Shown here: positions 15,427 through 41,958 of the stretch, in pieces | Layout: every line of letters starts with the position of its first letter | How positions within the stretch are numbered: position 1 is the stretch's first letter | Assembly (NCBI GenBank): GCA_943328795.2 | Contig: CALQBK020000021.1 | Span: 1 to 42,104, forward strand | DNA from: Bifidobacterium breve | GTDB taxonomy: Bacteria; Myxococcota_A; UBA796; SXON01 | Direction: 5' to 3' | Length of the DNA: 42,104 nucleotides | Translations under genes and position numbers: made by a program | Notes under the pieces: model-generated | What the model was told of the DNA's origin: nothing | The model's input: only the letters and a program-made list of their open reading frames with translations | Databases searched by the model: none

Positions 15427-15527
15427 GGCAGGCCGTGCCGCGCTGGTGCCGGCCCCGGTCTTCAAAACCGGTCGGGGCGCTCTGGAAGGATCCGCCCGGT
15501 GAGTTCGATTCTCATGGCCTGCCGCCA
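15427..15527 (+). tRNA. selC: tRNA-Sec (selC), anticodon TCA
   Basis: The acceptor stem has 8 bp: GGCAGGCC at 15427-15434 pairs perfectly with GGCCTGCC at 15516-15523. A discriminator G and genome-encoded CCA follow (15524-15527). The anticodon stem CCGGT/ACCGG encloses loop CTTCAAA, with anticodon TCA at 15462-15464. A long variable arm (GGGCG/CGCCC around 15475-15497) and a T-arm with TTCGATT (GTGAG/CTCAT, outer pair G-U) complete it. The 8-bp acceptor, UGA-reading anticodon and long extra arm are diagnostic of selenocysteine tRNA. It lies 20 nt after the kinase stop and may be read through from it. Its last 16 nt overlap the antisense end of the BNR-repeat gene. Confidence 0.95.
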
Positions 15528-26648: not shown

Positions 26649-27404
26649 TCAGATCCCGGAGCTCTGGCCGGCGTCCTCGGCCCACCGCGCGTCGTCGGGC
26701 GTGAAGCCGGTGAGATCGCCGGACAAGTCGTACGTGTACGCGCACGCCGTCGTCACGGTGAGCAAGCAGCCGGTGACGTCGCAGTCGGTCGCCTCGTAGT
26801 CGTTCGTCGCGGCGACCTCCGCGCCGGTGGTGTCGAGCTTCAACAGGTACGTCGACGCCGGCACGCGGCCCGTGGTGCCAATGGTGGCGGCCACCTCGTC
26901 GGCCCAACTGTCGCTCTCCGTCCAGCTCAACACGGCCTGGGAGCTGTCCTCCCACGTGCCGTTGAAGCTCCCGCCGCTGAACGTGCCCGTCACGCGCGTC
27001 GTCGTGGTCGTGTCGTACGTGTAGACGTAGTTGTAGCCGCTCTCGTGCGTGTCGTTGTCCCGGCCGGCGGCGGTGTGGTCCCACGCGAACACCCAGGCGC
27101 CGTCCTCCTGCTTGGTGCCCGGGAAGGCCGACGCGCCGACGATCAGCACCGCGGTGTCCCCCTCCTGGTCCACTCGCCCGAAGAACACGTCGGAGGAGAC
27201 CTCCGCCGTGTCGTTCTCGGTCCAGGCGTCATCGTTCTCGATCGTGGCGGGCTCGTAGGCGCCGATGAAGTCGTGCGTGATGCCGGACGTGCACTCGTCG
27301 CCGGTAGCGACCGTGATCGAGCGCGTGAACATCCAGGTGCCGTCGATTGGGCCCCCGCAGCCGGGGAGCACCAGGACCATCGCGGAGAGCAGGGCAGCGC
27401 GCAT
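26649..27404 (-). CDS. Lipoprotein of unknown function
   Basis: A 251-residue predicted lipoprotein. The leader MRAALLSAMVLVLPGC carries a lipobox cysteine at 16, followed by GGPIDGTWMFTRSI. The mature part is Thr/Asp/Ser-rich and looks like a beta-sandwich (SGGSFNGTWEDSSQAVLSW, TYTYDTTTTTRVTGTF). Four or more cysteines in the mature part (CTSG, DCDVTGC, TACAY) may form disulfides. I recognise no family. Start 27404 is supported by a GAGGT ribosome-binding site in TTGAGGTTCG just upstream. The gene is convergent with the TolC-like gene and diverges from tryptophan 2,3-dioxygenase. Confidence 0.78.
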   Translation of the reverse strand: MRAALLSAMVLVLPGCGGPIDGTWMFTRSITVATGDECTSGITHDFIGAYEPATIENDDAWTENDTAEVSSDVFFGRVDQEGDTAVLIVGASAFPGTKQEDGAWVFAWDHTAAGRDNDTHESGYNYVYTYDTTTTTRVTGTFSGGSFNGTWEDSSQAVLSWTESDSWADEVAATIGTTGRVPASTYLLKLDTTGAEVAATNDYEATDCDVTGCLLTVTTACAYTYDLSGDLTGFTPDDARWAEDAGQSSGI

Positions 27405-31186: not shown

Positions 31187-31224
31187 GATAGAACGATTCT
31201 CAGTCTCTGAGCTTCGTTACATCC
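31187..31224 (-). repeat. Dispersed palindromic repeat, copy B (end of hydrolase gene, before ppsA)
   Basis: Minus-strand reading gives GATGTAACGAAG, the shared core CTCAGAGACTGAGA, then ATCGTTCTATC. The TAA stop of the alpha/beta hydrolase lipoprotein (31217-31219) is the TAA within GATGTAACG, so the repeat supplies that gene's stop codon. It has 34 of 38 positions in common with copy A. Confidence 0.85.
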
Positions 31225-32290
31225 GGCTGTGCTGGAAGGCCACGCGGGGAGAGACCTGGATGCTGCCGTCGAGCACGCCGGTCACCTCGGGCGCGTCGCT
31301 GCCCAACACCGTCGCCCACCCGAACGCGAGGGTGTACGACCACACGATCTGCTGGCCCTCGTCTTTTGGCAGCGTGTCGCACGGCAAGTCCGTCGACGTG
31401 AAGGACTCGTGGCACGCGCCGTCGATCTCTACCCACCGCACGTCCGCCGCGGAGGCGCGCGTGTAGGGCTCTGTCCCGTCGTTGTCCGCCGTGCCCGTCT
31501 GGTACAGGATCGGCACCGCTACGTCGCCCCACGTCGCGTCGTCCACGAGCGTCGAGTCGGCCGATCCCGCCATCGGGCCAACCCCGACGATCCGCGGGTC
31601 GCCCGTCGGGTGATCAAAGGCAGCTTGCTCCTCGGCCGTGCAACCACCCTCGGCACACGACGTCGCGACACCGTCCGTGTTGAACCCGACCCCGGAGAGC
31701 AGCCAGCTGGTCTGCCCGCCAAAGCTGTGCCCGAGCACCAACACACGAGATGTATCAACTTTGCCGTACAGCGGATCGTCCTCCTGCAAGCTGGCGACCC
31801 AGTTCAAGGTCTCGACGATGTCCGTCGCCCGCACCAGGGGGTACACCACCGGCCGCGGATCGAGGTCGTCCACCAGCGTGTTCCCGGTGTGGTCCGGCGC
31901 GACGGCCACCCAGCCATTGTGCACGAACTGCTGCATCAGCTCGTAGTTGCTCCCGCCCCACGCCTGCGAGCCGTGCGAGTAGAGCAACAGCGGCCGAAGG
32001 CACTCACGCGGGTCCATCGGCGAGTCCACCCGGCTGTCCGGGTCGTTCCACATGCCGATGTACTGGGCGCCCTCGTCCGTCGGCGCGTCCGTCGAATACC
32101 AAAGGTTCAAGCCGATGGTCCGCGCGGTCCCGTCCCACGGCAACGCATAGTCGTGTGATACATATCGATACCCGACAATTGTGTCATCGGTGTCGATGCT
32201 CGGAAGATCGGGGACGCACGCGGCGACCGGCGCCCCGGTGTCCGCCGAGTCCACGGGCTTGCCGGTGCAGGCGAGGAGGAGAAGGAGCAT
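31217..32290 (-). CDS. Alpha/beta hydrolase lipoprotein (PAF-acetylhydrolase-like)
   Basis: A 357-residue exported lipoprotein. The very short leader MLLLLLAC gives an early lipobox cysteine (Cys8), then an Asp/Thr-rich linker. The hydrolase core has LLLYSHGSQAWGG (oxyanion region), VLVLGHSFGGQTS (nucleophile Ser189), an acid candidate in GTADNDG and a His in GACHESF. The arrangement resembles platelet-activating-factor acetylhydrolase/dienelactone hydrolase-type enzymes that cut ester bonds. It is last in a four-gene operon, with a 1-nt TGATG overlap with the lipoprotein gene upstream. Its final codons and TAA stop lie in dispersed repeat copy B. Confidence 0.86.
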   Translation of the reverse strand: MLLLLLACTGKPVDSADTGAPVAACVPDLPSIDTDDTIVGYRYVSHDYALPWDGTARTIGLNLWYSTDAPTDEGAQYIGMWNDPDSRVDSPMDPRECLRPLLLYSHGSQAWGGSNYELMQQFVHNGWVAVAPDHTGNTLVDDLDPRPVVYPLVRATDIVETLNWVASLQEDDPLYGKVDTSRVLVLGHSFGGQTSWLLSGVGFNTDGVATSCAEGGCTAEEQAAFDHPTGDPRIVGVGPMAGSADSTLVDDATWGDVAVPILYQTGTADNDGTEPYTRASAADVRWVEIDGACHESFTSTDLPCDTLPKDEGQQIVWSYTLAFGWATVLGSDAPEVTGVLDGSIQVSPRVAFQHSRM

Positions 32291-33141
32291 CAGCCCTCGA
32301 AGAGGAAGATCGGGATCGCGGTGAACTGCAAGGTGATCGAGAGCTGCTGACAGGTGCCGTAGTCGTTCGGCGCCATGTCGACGTTGTAGTCGAGCAGCGA
32401 CGACACGAGCGCGGTGACCTCGCTGTCGATGTTGTCTGTCGACGCGAGCTCGATCAGCTGGGCCTGGTCCAGGCCGCCGGCCAGGTACCCGGCCAACGAG
32501 CCATCCGGCTGGACCTCGAACCGGAGCGAGCCCTCCAGCACGGTGACCAAGAGCTCGTGCCCGAGGATGGTCACCGGAAGCGTCACTTGCAGCCCGTCCG
32601 CCTCGAGGCGGCCGCCGGTGACCGCGACGTGGCCGGCTTCAGAGCGCGGCGAGACGGTGTCCCGCGCGAGGGTCTGGTACCACTCCATCAACCCGTCCGT
32701 ACCGATGGACGGGGCGCCGGTGGCCCGCCCCAACGCAAAATCAACACATGTATCGCTTGCGTCGGTGGTCGCGATGTCGCTGTCCACGTTTCCGAGCTCG
32801 AGCGTGATCAGGAGCGAGCCATCGTCGATCGCGGCCTGGATCAGCGGCTCCAGCGCCTGCGCCTCGGTGGTCTCGAGCACGGGGAGGACCTTCGCGAACT
32901 GGTTGTCAATGCCGGTGGTGCCGTCGGGATCGGTGTAGTCCTGGATCCCGCAGCCCGTGCCGCCGCCTGCGTCTGTCACGGACTCGTCGAGGTTGAACCC
33001 CGCGGAGGTCCCATCGTCGAGCTCCCGAGAGAAGAGCAGCGTGGACATCACGTACGTGCTGGTTTTTTCGCCGGAGCACGCAGCCGTGTCGTCGCCGGGC
33101 TGGGCGCAAGCGAGCAGGAGGGCGAGCGGCAACGTGAGCAT
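32290..33141 (-). CDS. Lipoprotein of unknown function in DUF1552/DUF1592 operon
   Basis: A 283-residue predicted lipoprotein with leader MLTLPLALLLAC (lipobox Cys12), then a QPGDDTAACSG linker. The mature chain alternates beta-like segments (GRLEADGLQVTLPVTILGHELLVTVLEGSLRFEV) with acidic turns, and contains several cysteines (GCGIQD, DTCVDFALG, GTCQQLS). I recognise no family; the layout resembles other secreted proteins of unknown role from myxobacterial relatives. The start codon directly follows the TAG of the DUF1552 gene, and the stop overlaps the hydrolase start by 1 nt. Tight coupling suggests a shared periplasmic or surface function. Confidence 0.78.
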   Translation of the reverse strand: MLTLPLALLLACAQPGDDTAACSGEKTSTYVMSTLLFSRELDDGTSAGFNLDESVTDAGGGTGCGIQDYTDPDGTTGIDNQFAKVLPVLETTEAQALEPLIQAAIDDGSLLITLELGNVDSDIATTDASDTCVDFALGRATGAPSIGTDGLMEWYQTLARDTVSPRSEAGHVAVTGGRLEADGLQVTLPVTILGHELLVTVLEGSLRFEVQPDGSLAGYLAGGLDQAQLIELASTDNIDSEVTALVSSLLDYNVDMAPNDYGTCQQLSITLQFTAIPIFLFEG

Positions 33142-34509
33142 CTACGCCTCGATGTCCGAGAGACCGTCGGTCGCGAGCCCCTCGTCCGCGCCGAACGACG
33201 CCGCGGAGATGCCCATCGCCCGGATCACCGAGAGCATCACGGACGACGCGTTCTCCTGCGTGTACGAGCGGTAGTGGTAGCCGGTCTTCAGCGCGCCGCA
33301 GCCCCCGCCGGCGACCAGGATCGGCATGTCGTCGAGCGAATGGGTCCGGCCCTGCGACACCTCCGAGGCGGCCATCACCACGCAGTGGTCGAGCAACGTT
33401 GCGTCGCCTTCCACCACGTTGGACATCGCCGTGAGCAGGTAAGCGAGCTCCGCGACGCAGTCGGCGGTGATCATACGCACCTCCGTCTGCGGGTCGGGCT
33501 CGTCGTGGGTCAACGAGTGGTGCCCAGCGCTCGCGTCGGGGAACAGGATGTCGGCTACCGGGTCGGTCAGGTAGTGGCTGAACACCCGGGTTTGGTCACA
33601 AGCGAGCGCCATCGTGATCATGTCGCACATCGCCCGCGACCGGGCGGAGATCTGGGGCCGCCCGTCGACGTCCGCAAAATCGGCGGTGAAGGCCGGGGGT
33701 TGGGAGCACGCTGCCAAGTCGGGCGGATCCTCTTGGAGCTTCGCGAGCCGCGTCTCCAAGTCGCGAACTCCGTCCAAGTGCTGCTCCAGGCGGGCCTTGT
33801 CCGCCGTACCCACCCTCGACTGGAGGGCCGCGATGTCCTCCATCACGGAGTCGAGGATGCTCTGGCGAAGCCCAAGCGAAGGGTCGACGACGCCCTCCTC
33901 CCCAGGAGCGCGGAAGGTGTCGCCGAACAGGCGCTCGTACAGCGTGTACGGGTCCGTCTCCGGGTAGTTGCGGCTCGATGGTCCGTTCCAGCTCTGCCCG
34001 TCACAGTCGGTCCCGCCGGTCTGGATCGACGGGAAGATGGTGTCCCCGCCGATCTCGTTGGCGATCAGCTGGTCGATGGTCGGGCCGGCGAACGTGTACT
34101 CGTCGTTCACGGTGTCGAGGCCCATGCCAGTGAGGAGCCCCGCGGCCCCCGACGTGTGCGGCTCGGTGTTGGGGAGCTTTACCGACATCCCCGAGACCAC
34201 GCTGACCCAAGCCTTGACGTCCGACAGGGGCGTCAGCAGCTCAGAGAGCTCCCAGTCGTACCCCTCGGTCCCGGGCACCCAGTACTCGGGGACGTTCCCG
34301 TTGCCCCAGAAGAAGAGCCCAAAACGGGTAGGGAACCCATCGTCGCAGGCGCGCGCCTTGCGCCCGGCGAAGATCTCGAGCCAGGGCAACGACAACGCCA
34401 CGACCGAGCCGCGGAACAGGCCCTTCAGCACAGTGCGGCGCGAGAACCCGCCATGTTGTTGGCGAACGCCCGGCAGCCGGCGCTTCAACAGCGGGGGGAC
34501 GGGCTTCAT
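33142..34509 (-). CDS. DUF1552 protein with Tat signal
   Basis: A 455-residue DUF1552-family protein. The twin-arginine leader FSRRTVLKGLFRGSVVALSLPWLE (Arg pair near 24-25) predicts folded export by Tat, often meaning a bound cofactor or metal. Conserved-looking family segments are FGLFFWGNGNVPEYW, PHTSGAAGLLTG, SIQTGG and HHSLTHDE. DUF1552 proteins are found in Planctomycetes and Myxococcota, usually beside DUF1592 genes; biochemical function is unknown to me. The start is fixed by an ATGA overlap with the DUF1592 stop (ATG 34509-34507, TGA 34508-34506). The downstream lipoprotein starts immediately after its TAG. Confidence 0.9.
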   Translation of the reverse strand: MKPVPPLLKRRLPGVRQQHGGFSRRTVLKGLFRGSVVALSLPWLEIFAGRKARACDDGFPTRFGLFFWGNGNVPEYWVPGTEGYDWELSELLTPLSDVKAWVSVVSGMSVKLPNTEPHTSGAAGLLTGMGLDTVNDEYTFAGPTIDQLIANEIGGDTIFPSIQTGGTDCDGQSWNGPSSRNYPETDPYTLYERLFGDTFRAPGEEGVVDPSLGLRQSILDSVMEDIAALQSRVGTADKARLEQHLDGVRDLETRLAKLQEDPPDLAACSQPPAFTADFADVDGRPQISARSRAMCDMITMALACDQTRVFSHYLTDPVADILFPDASAGHHSLTHDEPDPQTEVRMITADCVAELAYLLTAMSNVVEGDATLLDHCVVMAASEVSQGRTHSLDDMPILVAGGGCGALKTGYHYRSYTQENASSVMLSVIRAMGISAASFGADEGLATDGLSDIEA

Positions 34510-36077
34510 TGCTCCACCTCGCCCAACCGACGAAACCCGCTGCTGGCCGCGATGTCCCGGATCAACCACTGGACGCGGTACCCGCTGTCTGCGAACCCGG
34601 CGGAGTGCCAGTCGATCAGCGGATCCTCGGCGTCCGACGCCGCGTGGCCCGTCGCATACTGGTAGAGCGTGCGGGAGAAGCACGGCGCGAGGTTGCTGTT
34701 CGCCCGAACCGCCGAAGCGAGGGACCAAGCGTCTGGGAACATCACGCCGTCCAAGTCCCCCGAGGGGTCGATCGTGTTTCCATTCTCCGTGTCCCGCCAG
34801 CCACCCAACCCGTCGAAATTCTCAAACCCGAGGCCGATCGGGTCCGTTTGGACGTGGCACACCGCGCACCCCTCGTTCGACATGTGCTCCTCGAGGCGAT
34901 CGCGCATGGTGGGGTAGCCGTCGGAGGGCTCGGGGATGGACGTGTCGACGTCCGCCGGCGGTGGGGAGAGGGGCTGGCAGAGCAGCACCTCGCGGATGAA
35001 CTTGCCGCGGCGGGTCGGGGAAGTGGAGGTCGGATGGGCTTGGAGAGCAAGGAAGCTCACCTCGCCGAGGAAGCCGCGCCGGCCACCGTCAGCCGGGAGC
35101 GTCGTCTTGGCGAACCCGTCCATCGATGGCGCAGGCACCCGGTAGATGGTGGCCAACTTTGGGTCGAGGAAGGCGGTCTGGGTGGTGAAGAAGTCGCGGT
35201 AGTCCCCGTCGTCGTCGAACGTGAGCCACTCGGCGAGCGAGAGCGTCTCCTCGCGAGCGCTCGCGCCTACGCTGGAGCTCGCGTGCACGTACACGGTGGG
35301 GTCCTTGCTCAAGTCGTCCAACTCGTACAGCGTGAGCATCTCGTTGAAGAAGTTGCGGATCCCCGCGCGGGCCCGGTCGTCCGACAGCATCCGGTCGACC
35401 TGGGCGTCGATCCCCGCGTCGGTGACCAAGTCCCCCGCCTCCCCCGCCGCGATGAGCTCCTCGTCGGGCGTCGAATTCCACAGGAAGTACGCGAGGCGCG
35501 TGCTCATCTCCAGGCTCGTGTAGCGCCGCTCGCCCGGGGCGTCGGGGTCATCCTCCCCCAGCTCCACGCGGTAGACGAAGTACGGCGACTCCAGCAGCGC
35601 GGCGATGCCGTAAGTGAGCCCCTCGTCCCAGCTCCCGAGCGTAGCCGTCGCCTCGGACGCGATCGTCGCGATGCGATCGAGCTCAGCGTCCGACAGCGGC
35701 CGACGCCACGCGCGGCGGCCAAGCGCCTGGAGCACCGTCCGGCTGCACGCGTCGTCTGCCGTGTCGCACGACACCAAGGCGGTCCGCAGCTCGTCGCTCG
35801 CCATCACCTGGTCCGCGACATCGAACGCGGCGGTCTCGTACTGCTCGACGCCGAGCGAAGACAAGGAGTTCACCGTCCCGCCGATCACCAACAAGCCATC
35901 GGACGCCGCATCCGGCTCGATGTCGTCCGGGACCACGACGGCGTCGCCGAACAAGGACTGGATCGAGTTCCCGTACTGCGCGTGCGTCAGGCGCTTGAGC
36001 ACCGGCCCGGCGGGCTCCACCACCGGGGCGCTCTCGCGCACGGGGTCTACAGTCGCGCACGCGAGGAGGAGCAGCAT
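34506..36077 (-). CDS. DUF1592 multidomain lipoprotein with CxxCH motif
   Basis: A 523-residue exported protein with the DUF1587-1595-1592-1588-1585 order usual for this family. The leader MLLLLAC places a lipobox cysteine at 7. LTHAQYGNSIQSLFG near 30 is DUF1587-like. LAYFLWNSTPDEELIAAGEAG and RNFFNEML belong to DUF1592. TSTSPTRRGKFIREVLLCQP begins DUF1588. CAVCH at 404-408, within GCAVCHVQTDPIGLGFENFD, could bind one c-type heme; the full N-terminal cytochrome domain seen in many planctomycete versions is absent. TLYQYATG near the end is DUF1585-like. It heads a tightly coupled operon and sits 63 nt after the acyltransferase stop. Confidence 0.9.
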   Translation of the reverse strand: MLLLLACATVDPVRESAPVVEPAGPVLKRLTHAQYGNSIQSLFGDAVVVPDDIEPDAASDGLLVIGGTVNSLSSLGVEQYETAAFDVADQVMASDELRTALVSCDTADDACSRTVLQALGRRAWRRPLSDAELDRIATIASEATATLGSWDEGLTYGIAALLESPYFVYRVELGEDDPDAPGERRYTSLEMSTRLAYFLWNSTPDEELIAAGEAGDLVTDAGIDAQVDRMLSDDRARAGIRNFFNEMLTLYELDDLSKDPTVYVHASSSVGASAREETLSLAEWLTFDDDGDYRDFFTTQTAFLDPKLATIYRVPAPSMDGFAKTTLPADGGRRGFLGEVSFLALQAHPTSTSPTRRGKFIREVLLCQPLSPPPADVDTSIPEPSDGYPTMRDRLEEHMSNEGCAVCHVQTDPIGLGFENFDGLGGWRDTENGNTIDPSGDLDGVMFPDAWSLASAVRANSNLAPCFSRTLYQYATGHAASDAEDPLIDWHSAGFADSGYRVQWLIRDIAASSGFRRLGEVEQ

Positions 36078-36941: not shown

Positions 36942-39083
36942 TCAGCGCCCCCGTGCCAGCGCGGCCAAGCGGTCCCGCAGCTCTTCTTCGCCCGACAGGA
37001 ACTCCCAGTCGAGCACCAGCGCCCATGCGGGCCAATCGAAGGGCAACCGCGCGGCGTCCTTCTCGGTCGTGACCAACACGTGGGAGTCGCCCAGGCCCTC
37101 GAGCACGGCGAGGTCCTCGGGGGTGTAGCGGTGATGGTCCGGGTAGACGAACGTGCGCGCGGGCGGGTGGCCGACGTCCCGGAGGTGACGAAAGACCCCG
37201 CCAGGCCGCGCGATACCCGCGAACGCCGCGACGGGGAGGGCAGGCAACGCGTCCAGCGGGTACCGCCGCCCCTCGTGGAGCCAACCCACGGGCCGGTACC
37301 GGGCGCGGACCATCAACGTGCCGGGGGCAACGAACGCCCGCATCGACGGCGGGAGTTGGCCCTGGTCGCTTCCCGCGTGGTTGAGCCAGATCACGTCAGC
37401 CCGTCGCAGCGCCCGCAGCGGGAGGCGCCGACTCCCGACCGGGATCAGGCCGTCCTCGCCGGGAAAGCGGGCGTCGACGACCACGATCTCCAGGTCCTTC
37501 GCAATGCTCCGCACCTGCAACGCGTCGTCGAGCACGGCGACCGGCCGGGACCCGCTCCCCGAGCGCGAAAACGCCTCGACGACACCCCGCACGCGGTCGG
37601 GCGACGACACCACCGGGACCCCGCGCCGCGCGAGCATCGTGAGCTCATCGCCGAGCTCGCCGGCCTCCCCCGAGGTCCGCACGTCGGACCCCGGATCGCG
37701 ACCGTACCCGCGCGACACCACGGTGCCGGACACGACCCCAGCCACCCACGCCGCGACAGGGGTCTTGCCCGCGCCCCCGGCGGTCAGCGAGCCAACCGAG
37801 ATCACGTGGCCGCCCGGCACCCGCCGACGAGCACCAAGCGCGTCTCGCACGGCCGCAGCCGCAGCCCACGCCGGGACCAACGGCCACAACCACGGCCGCA
37901 ACGCGCGCTCCTTCGGCGTCTCCGCGTCCCAAGCGACCTCCAGCGCGCGCACTGTCGCCTCCGCAGCTCGCGCCGACTTGGGCACGCGCCGGGGGGCCTG
38001 GAGCGCGGCCTGCAGCGCCGACGTGACCGCCGCGGGGGTGCGGGCGACGAACCCCGCGACCCCCTCCCACGCGCCCGGGTTCGCGCCGGTGAACGGCCCG
38101 TGTACGACCGGGCACCCCGCGGCGACCGCCTCCGCGGGGGAGTGCCCGCCGACCGCCTCGCGGAAGGTCCCGCCTACGAACGCCGCAGCAGCCCCCGCGT
38201 ACAGCGTCCCGAGCTCGCCGATCGTGTCGAGCAGCAGCACGTCGATCTCGGGCCGGACGACATCCGGATCCTCGTCGTCGTCCCCGAGGCGCGTCCGGCG
38301 CTCGGCGGCGCCCGACATCGCCTGGACCAACTTCCACACGTCCTCGAACCGCGCAGGGTCACGCGGGGCGAGCACCAGCTGCGGCCGCGGCGCGATCTCG
38401 GACACGGCTGCCATCAGCGCGCGCTCCTCCCCGGGGTGCGTGCTCCCGCCGATCACCACGGGGCGCGTGAACCGCAACGCAGGCTTGCCGAACGTCGCCT
38501 CCAGCTTGAGGTCGCCTACCGCGATGCCCCCGAGCTCCCGCGCGGTCGGGAGGTCCGGCGCGACCCACGACAGGTCCCGCGTGAGCCCCTCCCAAAGCCA
38601 CGGCACCGCCTTCCACCGCCGCAGCCCCGAGCCCAGCCTCGCGTTCACCACGGCCACGGGGATGCCCCGGTCCCTGCAGCCCTCCAGCAGCACCGGCCAC
38701 AGCTCGGCCTCCGCCAGCACCAAGCAGCGCGGCCGCACCCGGTCGAGGAACGCGTTCACCGCGAAGGGGACGTCCACCGGCGCGTACGCCGACTGGTCCG
38801 CGCCAACGTCCTGGGGCCGCGCGTTCACCGAGGTGCACGTGCGCAGGATCGCGACGGGGCCCAGCGCCGCGCGGATCGCAGGGATCAACGCGGACGCGAC
38901 GCGCCCCTCTCCCAGGCTCGCCGCGTGGATCCAAACGGCGCCCGGCTCGACCTCGGAGACCACGAGCCCAAGGCGCTCGCGCGCGCCCCCCCGGAGCTTC
39001 GGGTGCGTGACCACCACGAGCGCGACCAGCGGCGTCGCCGCCCACGCGAGGGCCTGGAGCACGAAGAGCGCGAGGAGGTACAT
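36942..39083 (-). CDS. waaA-lpxK: Fusion of Kdo transferase (WaaA) and lipid A 4'-kinase (LpxK)
   Basis: A 713-residue bifunctional protein. Residues 1-390 are WaaA/KdtA-like: N-terminal anchor (1-27), catalytic-base region GGARERLG (Glu36), VWIHAASLGEG, LAEAELWP, GGSTHPGEE and GGHSPAEAVAAGCPVVHGP. Residues about 395-713 are LpxK-like: Walker A SVGSLTAGGAGKTP (Lys440), VSRGYGRD, LDDALQ (Asp519-520), AGIARPGGVFRHL, YPDHHRYTPEDL and LVTTEKDAARL. The first half transfers Kdo to the lipid IVA disaccharide; the second phosphorylates the 4' position. These are normally separate proteins acting in sequence at the cytoplasmic face. No stop or frameshift separates the halves. The ribosome-binding site is weak. 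The acyltransferase follows with no gap. Confidence 0.94.
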   Translation of the reverse strand: MYLLALFVLQALAWAATPLVALVVVTHPKLRGGARERLGLVVSEVEPGAVWIHAASLGEGRVASALIPAIRAALGPVAILRTCTSVNARPQDVGADQSAYAPVDVPFAVNAFLDRVRPRCLVLAEAELWPVLLEGCRDRGIPVAVVNARLGSGLRRWKAVPWLWEGLTRDLSWVAPDLPTARELGGIAVGDLKLEATFGKPALRFTRPVVIGGSTHPGEERALMAAVSEIAPRPQLVLAPRDPARFEDVWKLVQAMSGAAERRTRLGDDDEDPDVVRPEIDVLLLDTIGELGTLYAGAAAAFVGGTFREAVGGHSPAEAVAAGCPVVHGPFTGANPGAWEGVAGFVARTPAAVTSALQAALQAPRRVPKSARAAEATVRALEVAWDAETPKERALRPWLWPLVPAWAAAAAVRDALGARRRVPGGHVISVGSLTAGGAGKTPVAAWVAGVVSGTVVSRGYGRDPGSDVRTSGEAGELGDELTMLARRGVPVVSSPDRVRGVVEAFSRSGSGSRPVAVLDDALQVRSIAKDLEIVVVDARFPGEDGLIPVGSRRLPLRALRRADVIWLNHAGSDQGQLPPSMRAFVAPGTLMVRARYRPVGWLHEGRRYPLDALPALPVAAFAGIARPGGVFRHLRDVGHPPARTFVYPDHHRYTPEDLAVLEGLGDSHVLVTTEKDAARLPFDWPAWALVLDWEFLSGEEELRDRLAALARGR

Positions 39084-39262: not shown

Positions 39263-41958
<2,696 letters not shown>

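Follow-up and report, generated by a model that had tools for sequence, protein, structure and literature searches.

The window, the whole stretch of DNA analysed here, is 42,104 nucleotides long and corresponds to contig 21 of a draft genome that totals 4.79 Mb in 298 contigs. Four genes, which we call A, B, C, and D, occupy positions 36077-31217 of its minus strand, with A first and D last; all coordinates given for these genes and their motifs refer to that strand. A and B overlap by 4 nt (ATGA, 34506-34509), B and C abut with 0 nt between them (TAG/ATG, 33142/33141), and C and D share 1 nt (TGATG, 32290), so that the four-gene order, coordinates, and overlaps of 4, 0, and 1 nt recorded in an earlier note on this DNA are borne out. 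Third-position GC is 0.88-0.91 in each of the four genes.

The surrounding sequence holds several features of its own. A 713-aa ORF (36942-39083, minus strand) combines the Kdo-transferase N-terminal domain (PF04413) with LpxK (PF02606) in an apparent WaaA-LpxK fusion; after it, on the same strand and just upstream of A, comes a gene for a lipid A acyltransferase. These lipid A genes were considered as members of the unit and rejected, since a related genome (G001) has different genes at this position. The gene directly upstream of A in G001 (locus L032) is a homologue of a lipoprotein-like gene without a Pfam match at 26652-27404 (minus) of the window. On the plus strand there are a selenocysteine tRNA gene (15427-15523) and a Fur-family regulator gene beside a frame that by eye resembles a catalase-peroxidase (39263-41955).

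Gene A (34506-36077) encodes a putative lipoprotein cytochrome of 523 aa with the domain order PSD3-PSD5-PSD4-PSCyt3-PSD2 (DUF1587/1595/1592/1588/1585). All five Pfam domains score above their cut-offs, PSD4 with 110.6 bits against 23.3 and PSCyt3 with 100 against 27, and a search of PDB sequences gave no significant match. A possible heme motif had been suspected, and this can now be placed more firmly: the c-type haem motif CAVCH occupies residues 404-408 (34854-34868), CxxCH is kept in 97/97 of the collected homologues that are 400 aa or longer, and C404, C407, H408, D412, and H398, which precedes the motif, are invariant among them. Cytochrome c assembly genes and TatC genes were found in the host genome.

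Gene B (33142-34509) encodes a 455-aa DUF1552 protein that matches Pfam HXXSHH (PF07586) at E 7e-61, scoring 206.9 bits against a cut-off of 30; its closest named records, at 82-83% identity, are labelled Myxococcota, Deltaproteobacteria, or 'proteobacterium' MAGs. The expected Tat-dependent member of the group is this protein, whose twin-arginine signal SRRTVLKG was read at residues 23-30 (34420-34443); R24 and R25 are invariant both in the TH-type proteins defined below and in other DUF1552 proteins. The family takes its name from the motif HxxSHH, which is absent from B; HHSLTHDE (residues 330-337, 33499-33522) stands in its place. On sequence grounds, this TH form marks a subfamily of Pfam DUF1552: in a quick tree of B computed with the motif masked, the TH state changes 3 times, against about 40 times when shuffled.

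Across 92 TH-type B proteins, H118, D146, C304, H331, H335, and H390 are invariant, T334 and E367 are fixed, and E337, Q341, and H412 are nearly so. These conserved histidine and acidic residues suggest a metal site. The AlphaFold model of B (pLDDT 83.7) matches sulfatases and alkaline phosphatases in Foldseek (E 3e-6, probability 1.00) with modest TM-scores of about 0.3-0.45, and the predicted fold is accordingly that of the sulfatase/alkaline-phosphatase superfamily. B resembles the superfamily in this respect; it differs in that neither B nor its profile has a significant match among PDB sequences, and in alignments its conserved residues look like a metal site rebuilt with histidines.

This fold raises the main rival to the reading that we prefer below. 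In this rival, B would simply hydrolyse sulfate or phosphate esters in the envelope as a member of the alkaline-phosphatase/sulfatase superfamily, A would be a haem partner with a structural or sensory role, and D would act on the same substrate as a second hydrolase. Besides the predicted fold, this explanation can draw on the recurrence of the esterase-like D as a neighbour and on a passage of PMC5615132 according to which sulfatase genes often adjoin PSCyt genes in Verrucomicrobia. Against this, the CxxCH of A is invariant, and T119 and S120, which follow H118, are not conserved in the alignment across DUF1552, so that no family-wide nucleophile is evident there; this last point is not decisive, since Ser120 is frequent in the C-linked group. 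We regard this explanation as unlikely, though a serious competitor.

Gene C (32290-33141) encodes a lipoprotein of 283 aa that belongs to an undescribed but conserved family. It starts MLTLPLALLLAC, which is lipoprotein-like, and carries the family signature GCGxxDxxxPxGxxGIDNxF at residues 63-82 (32896-32955). An alignment of 40 members defines this signature, with C64, D68, G74, G77, and D79 among the invariant residues; the window's C is homologous to the family profile and has the GIDN signature. Searches found no family match in Pfam or NCBIfam and no significant sequence match in the PDB. The AlphaFold model of C is confident (pLDDT 89.1), and a fold search with it against the PDB gave no match at E <= 0.001; C may thus have a new fold, or a beta-rich fold beyond detection. 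A scan of the genome contigs with the single C sequence returned 162 pattern matches, of which 0 were confirmed. Weak matches to the C profile (E about 1e-6 to 1e-8) occur in DUF1552-free genomes including G010, G017, and G065, which suggests a wider superfamily around C. Among ten stand-alone C genes scanned, the neighbours were beta-lactamase-like, cyclase, kinase, transporter, and other genes, with nothing recurrent.

Gene D (31217-32290) encodes a 357-aa lipoprotein alpha/beta-hydrolase. It shares with PET hydrolases and PAF acetylhydrolase-like proteins the sequence motif GHSFGG (31715-31732) and a match of residues 148-195 to the PET hydrolase 6ky5 (E 1.5e-5); the candidate triad Asp (within 31475-31498) and His (within 31400-31420) were assigned by eye. 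It is unlike them in being a lipoprotein of this length and in its weak Pfam matches, with PETase (PF12740) at 23.5 bits, below the cut-off of 28, and PAF-AH barely over its cut-off.

The earlier note had counted two lipoproteins. The lipoprotein-like starts stand, but the number does not: A begins MLLLLAC, with the lipobox LLLACA at residues 3-8, D begins MLLLLLAC, and C too has a lipobox at its start. Read by eye and predictor-free, the sequences of three proteins (A, C, and D) thus look like those of lipoproteins.

Whether these genes belong together is best judged from their relatives. In an order-level sample of 56 related genomes (the order sample), C is present in 41, and the 117 DUF1552 loci found have DUF1592 within 4 kb in 104 cases. 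C accompanies DUF1552 at 44 of the 117, always on the same strand and 300-540 nt past the DUF1552 match, and 19 further C homologues lie away from any DUF1552. A scan of the phylum found C in 131 of 284 genomes and DUF1552 in 150. Strong C matches (E < 1e-20) come from genomes with DUF1552 in 102 of 103 cases, tallied by eye in the phylum sample; the exception is G082, a genome estimated to be complete, where no DUF1552 passed the cut-off applied. Of 40 C loci drawn from the whole phylum, B lies directly upstream of C and on its strand in 33, and A precedes B wherever the sequence reaches. C follows B directly in 81 distinct Myxococcota loci; 71 of these extend far enough upstream, and in 69 of them A comes immediately before B in the same orientation. 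The A-B-C order is repeated in about twenty Myxococcota family groups, which is more than chance would give. The suggestion that tight coupling implies a joint process is thus upheld for a real module of these three genes, whose order is kept across the phylum. There are also variants: C genes are doubled in tandem after B at three loci (L148, L149, and L159), and at L196 (contig C88 of G102) two B genes flank one C (A-B-C-B), an apparent duplication.

C is also linked to the motif of B. Among 140 distinct B proteins, the T-H motif is found in 80/80 of those with C nearby (76 with C directly downstream and 4 within 6 kb), and the 39 without C but with enough room to see it divide into 28 non-TH and 11 TH. 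Counted from the other side, TH-type B with enough sequence has C adjacent or within 6 kb in 80 of 91 cases. In hand tallies of the order sample, TH-type B occurs in 41/41 genomes with C and in 1/15 without it (G037, 83% complete); five genomes (G027, G038, G039, G046, and G054) have a TH-type B without an adjacent C, yet carry C genes elsewhere. Fisher tests on C with DUF1552 and on the motif with C-adjacency ignore kinship and are descriptive only. C belongs with the TH-type DUF1552 subfamily across the phylum.

One might argue that C and D are both incidental beside an ordinary A-B pair, and C is indeed missing from most DUF1552 loci overall (73 of the 117 in the order sample). This absence does not extend to most members of the TH-type subfamily, as the counts above show, and C tracks that one subfamily both phylum-wide and in Alphaproteobacteria, which contradicts the argument for C; we consider it very improbable.

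The case of D is different, and its place as a fixed member of the set proposed in the earlier note is not supported. D-family hydrolases are found next to 23 of the 58 wide A-B-C loci, in 10 cases after C and in 13 before A, and mostly on the same strand. This is well over the roughly 0.1 loci expected by an estimate from guessed gene counts, and a tree of D requires at least 5 changes of the label for lying near or far from A-B-C; the D label of locus L084 of G002, which ends at a contig edge, is uncertain, as the gene may be the remaining part of a D found at the start of contig C179. We read D as having been acquired on more than one occasion, and hence as optional. The same recurrence at either end, together with the repeated label changes, can be read to mean that D forms one functional unit with A-B-C wherever it is encoded, as a four-gene system acting in trans where the genes lie apart. 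We lean against this possibility. No D is nearby in 35 of the 58 loci, the tree places the D of the window and of G001 inside a clade of hydrolases mostly encoded elsewhere, and within family group f1 the hydrolases most closely related to the window's D lie mostly on other contigs, one of them in a DUF1552-free genome (G017).

The claim that the whole system is undescribed has to be narrowed to family C, since the A-B pair is already in the literature. Passages of PMC5615132 describe PSCyt3 genes in Planctomycetes and Verrucomicrobia as usually lying next to one family of unknown genes; that this adjoining family is DUF1552 is our own reading of that paper. The window's genes resemble such pairs in the five Pfam domains and CxxCH of A, in a B above the DUF1552 cut-off, and in their tandem arrangement, whereas the HxxxTH(D/N/E)E form of B and the lipoprotein gene C that follows set them apart. 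A further parallel is offered by DUF1800-DUF1501 pairs, likened here by description only, which are likewise tandem and include a Tat-exported DUF protein without an assigned function (according to PMC5122149); these belong to other Pfam families. The passages on DUF1592 and DUF1552 that were read in the open literature assign no function to them, and redox functions were suggested earlier for planctomycete-specific domain proteins in a passage of PMC2754498.

The same source bears on another explanation, in which A-B-C would sense redox state or stress, or would maintain the envelope, and would not act as a catalyst. One of its tables places the DUF1552 gene RB9955 of Rhodopirellula baltica among regulated genes with the remark 'regulatory mechanism', and C has no enzyme-like match. 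However, B keeps a cluster of histidine and acidic residues suited to a metal site, and among the neighbours of A-B-C, most of them unannotated, no signalling gene was seen to recur; ten Myxococcota loci that were scanned had peptidases, radical SAM proteins, MopE repeats, and a redox flavoprotein, none of them recurrent. Such a role seems improbable to us.

Plasmids extend the picture beyond Myxococcota. DUF1552 was found on 15 plasmids, mostly of Sphingobium. A tblastn search of plasmids with C gave no match; distant C homologues were recognised by reading the loci and were then confirmed with profiles (hhalign 98.8%, E 5e-17; hmmsearch down to 4e-19). They precede A and B on plasmids of S. 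herbicidovorans, Sphingobium TomTYG73, and Novosphingobium RL4, where the B motifs are YHQSTHEE, YHQATHEE, and HHQLTHEE, respectively. The link between TH-type B and C is not absolute, because no C was detected in Sphingobium TomTYG65, whose B is of the TH type. The S-H form of B without C occurs in Novosphingobium KACC 22771 and on a plasmid of Planctomyces sp. SH-PL62 (L203). The Planctomyces locus, with the motif HHLLSHAD, is followed by a 3-keto-disaccharide hydrolase gene (PF06439), a neighbour that hints at oxidised sugars as substrate in this S-H branch.

Two of the Sphingobium loci also have cytochrome genes as neighbours. In S. herbicidovorans, genes for cytochrome c' and cytochrome b561 come after the A-B pair, and in TomTYG65 a cytochrome b561 follows B; such cytochrome neighbours were observed at these two loci and not in Myxococcota, and a redox role fits with them. 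HsaA-, HsaC-, and steroid-CoA-ligase-like genes, all scoring below curated cut-offs, lie near the same two loci, and this proximity to steroid-catabolism-like genes is the reason for considering a hydrophobic polycyclic (steroid-like) substrate, a lead that applies to Sphingobium only. The 47 kb of TomTYG73 carry no steroid-catabolism annotation. The strain names TomTYG and TomMM are used in work on tomatine degradation by Sphingobium (PMC10653915), and a word search of its main text for DUF or cytochrome genes gave no hit.

Our preferred reading is that A-B-C forms a three-protein redox module of the envelope with D as an optional helper, and we would give it about an even chance. That A-B-C is a real cell-envelope module acting as a redox enzyme is probable, given the invariant haem motif of A, the c-type maturation and Tat genes, the fold match of B, and its conserved histidine and acidic residues. 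Gene order, motifs, conservation, and co-occurrence are observed here, as is the predicted fold of B. In the proposed mechanism, B would be exported folded by the Tat pathway and hold a catalytic metal site in an alkaline-phosphatase-like fold, and A, as a c-type cytochrome with one haem and a lipid anchor, would accept electrons from B or donate them to it. C, lipid-anchored, cysteine-containing, and probably beta-rich, would serve TH-type B as a dedicated partner, either in docking or in holding the substrate, and D, where present, would cleave ester bonds of the substrate of A-B-C. The complex of the proteins, the metal, the direction of the electrons, and any substrate of the module are inferred; the process may consist in oxidising or hydrolysing a substrate outside the cell. 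A bolder proposal, that TH-type DUF1552 with A and C makes up an unrecognised class of extracytoplasmic metal-haem oxidoreductases built on an alkaline-phosphatase fold and acting on steroid-like or polycyclic lipids, is speculative and rather unlikely.

The new elements are family C, the rule linking it to TH-type B, and the extension to sphingomonads, descriptions of which were not found in the literature. DUF1592 and DUF1552 proteins occur widely among Planctomycetes, Verrucomicrobia, and Myxococcota; the gains are a minimal A-B-C unit, a diagnostic motif for the C-linked DUF1552 subfamily, and a new protein family, and the plasmid-borne version in the culturable genus Sphingobium offers a route to function.
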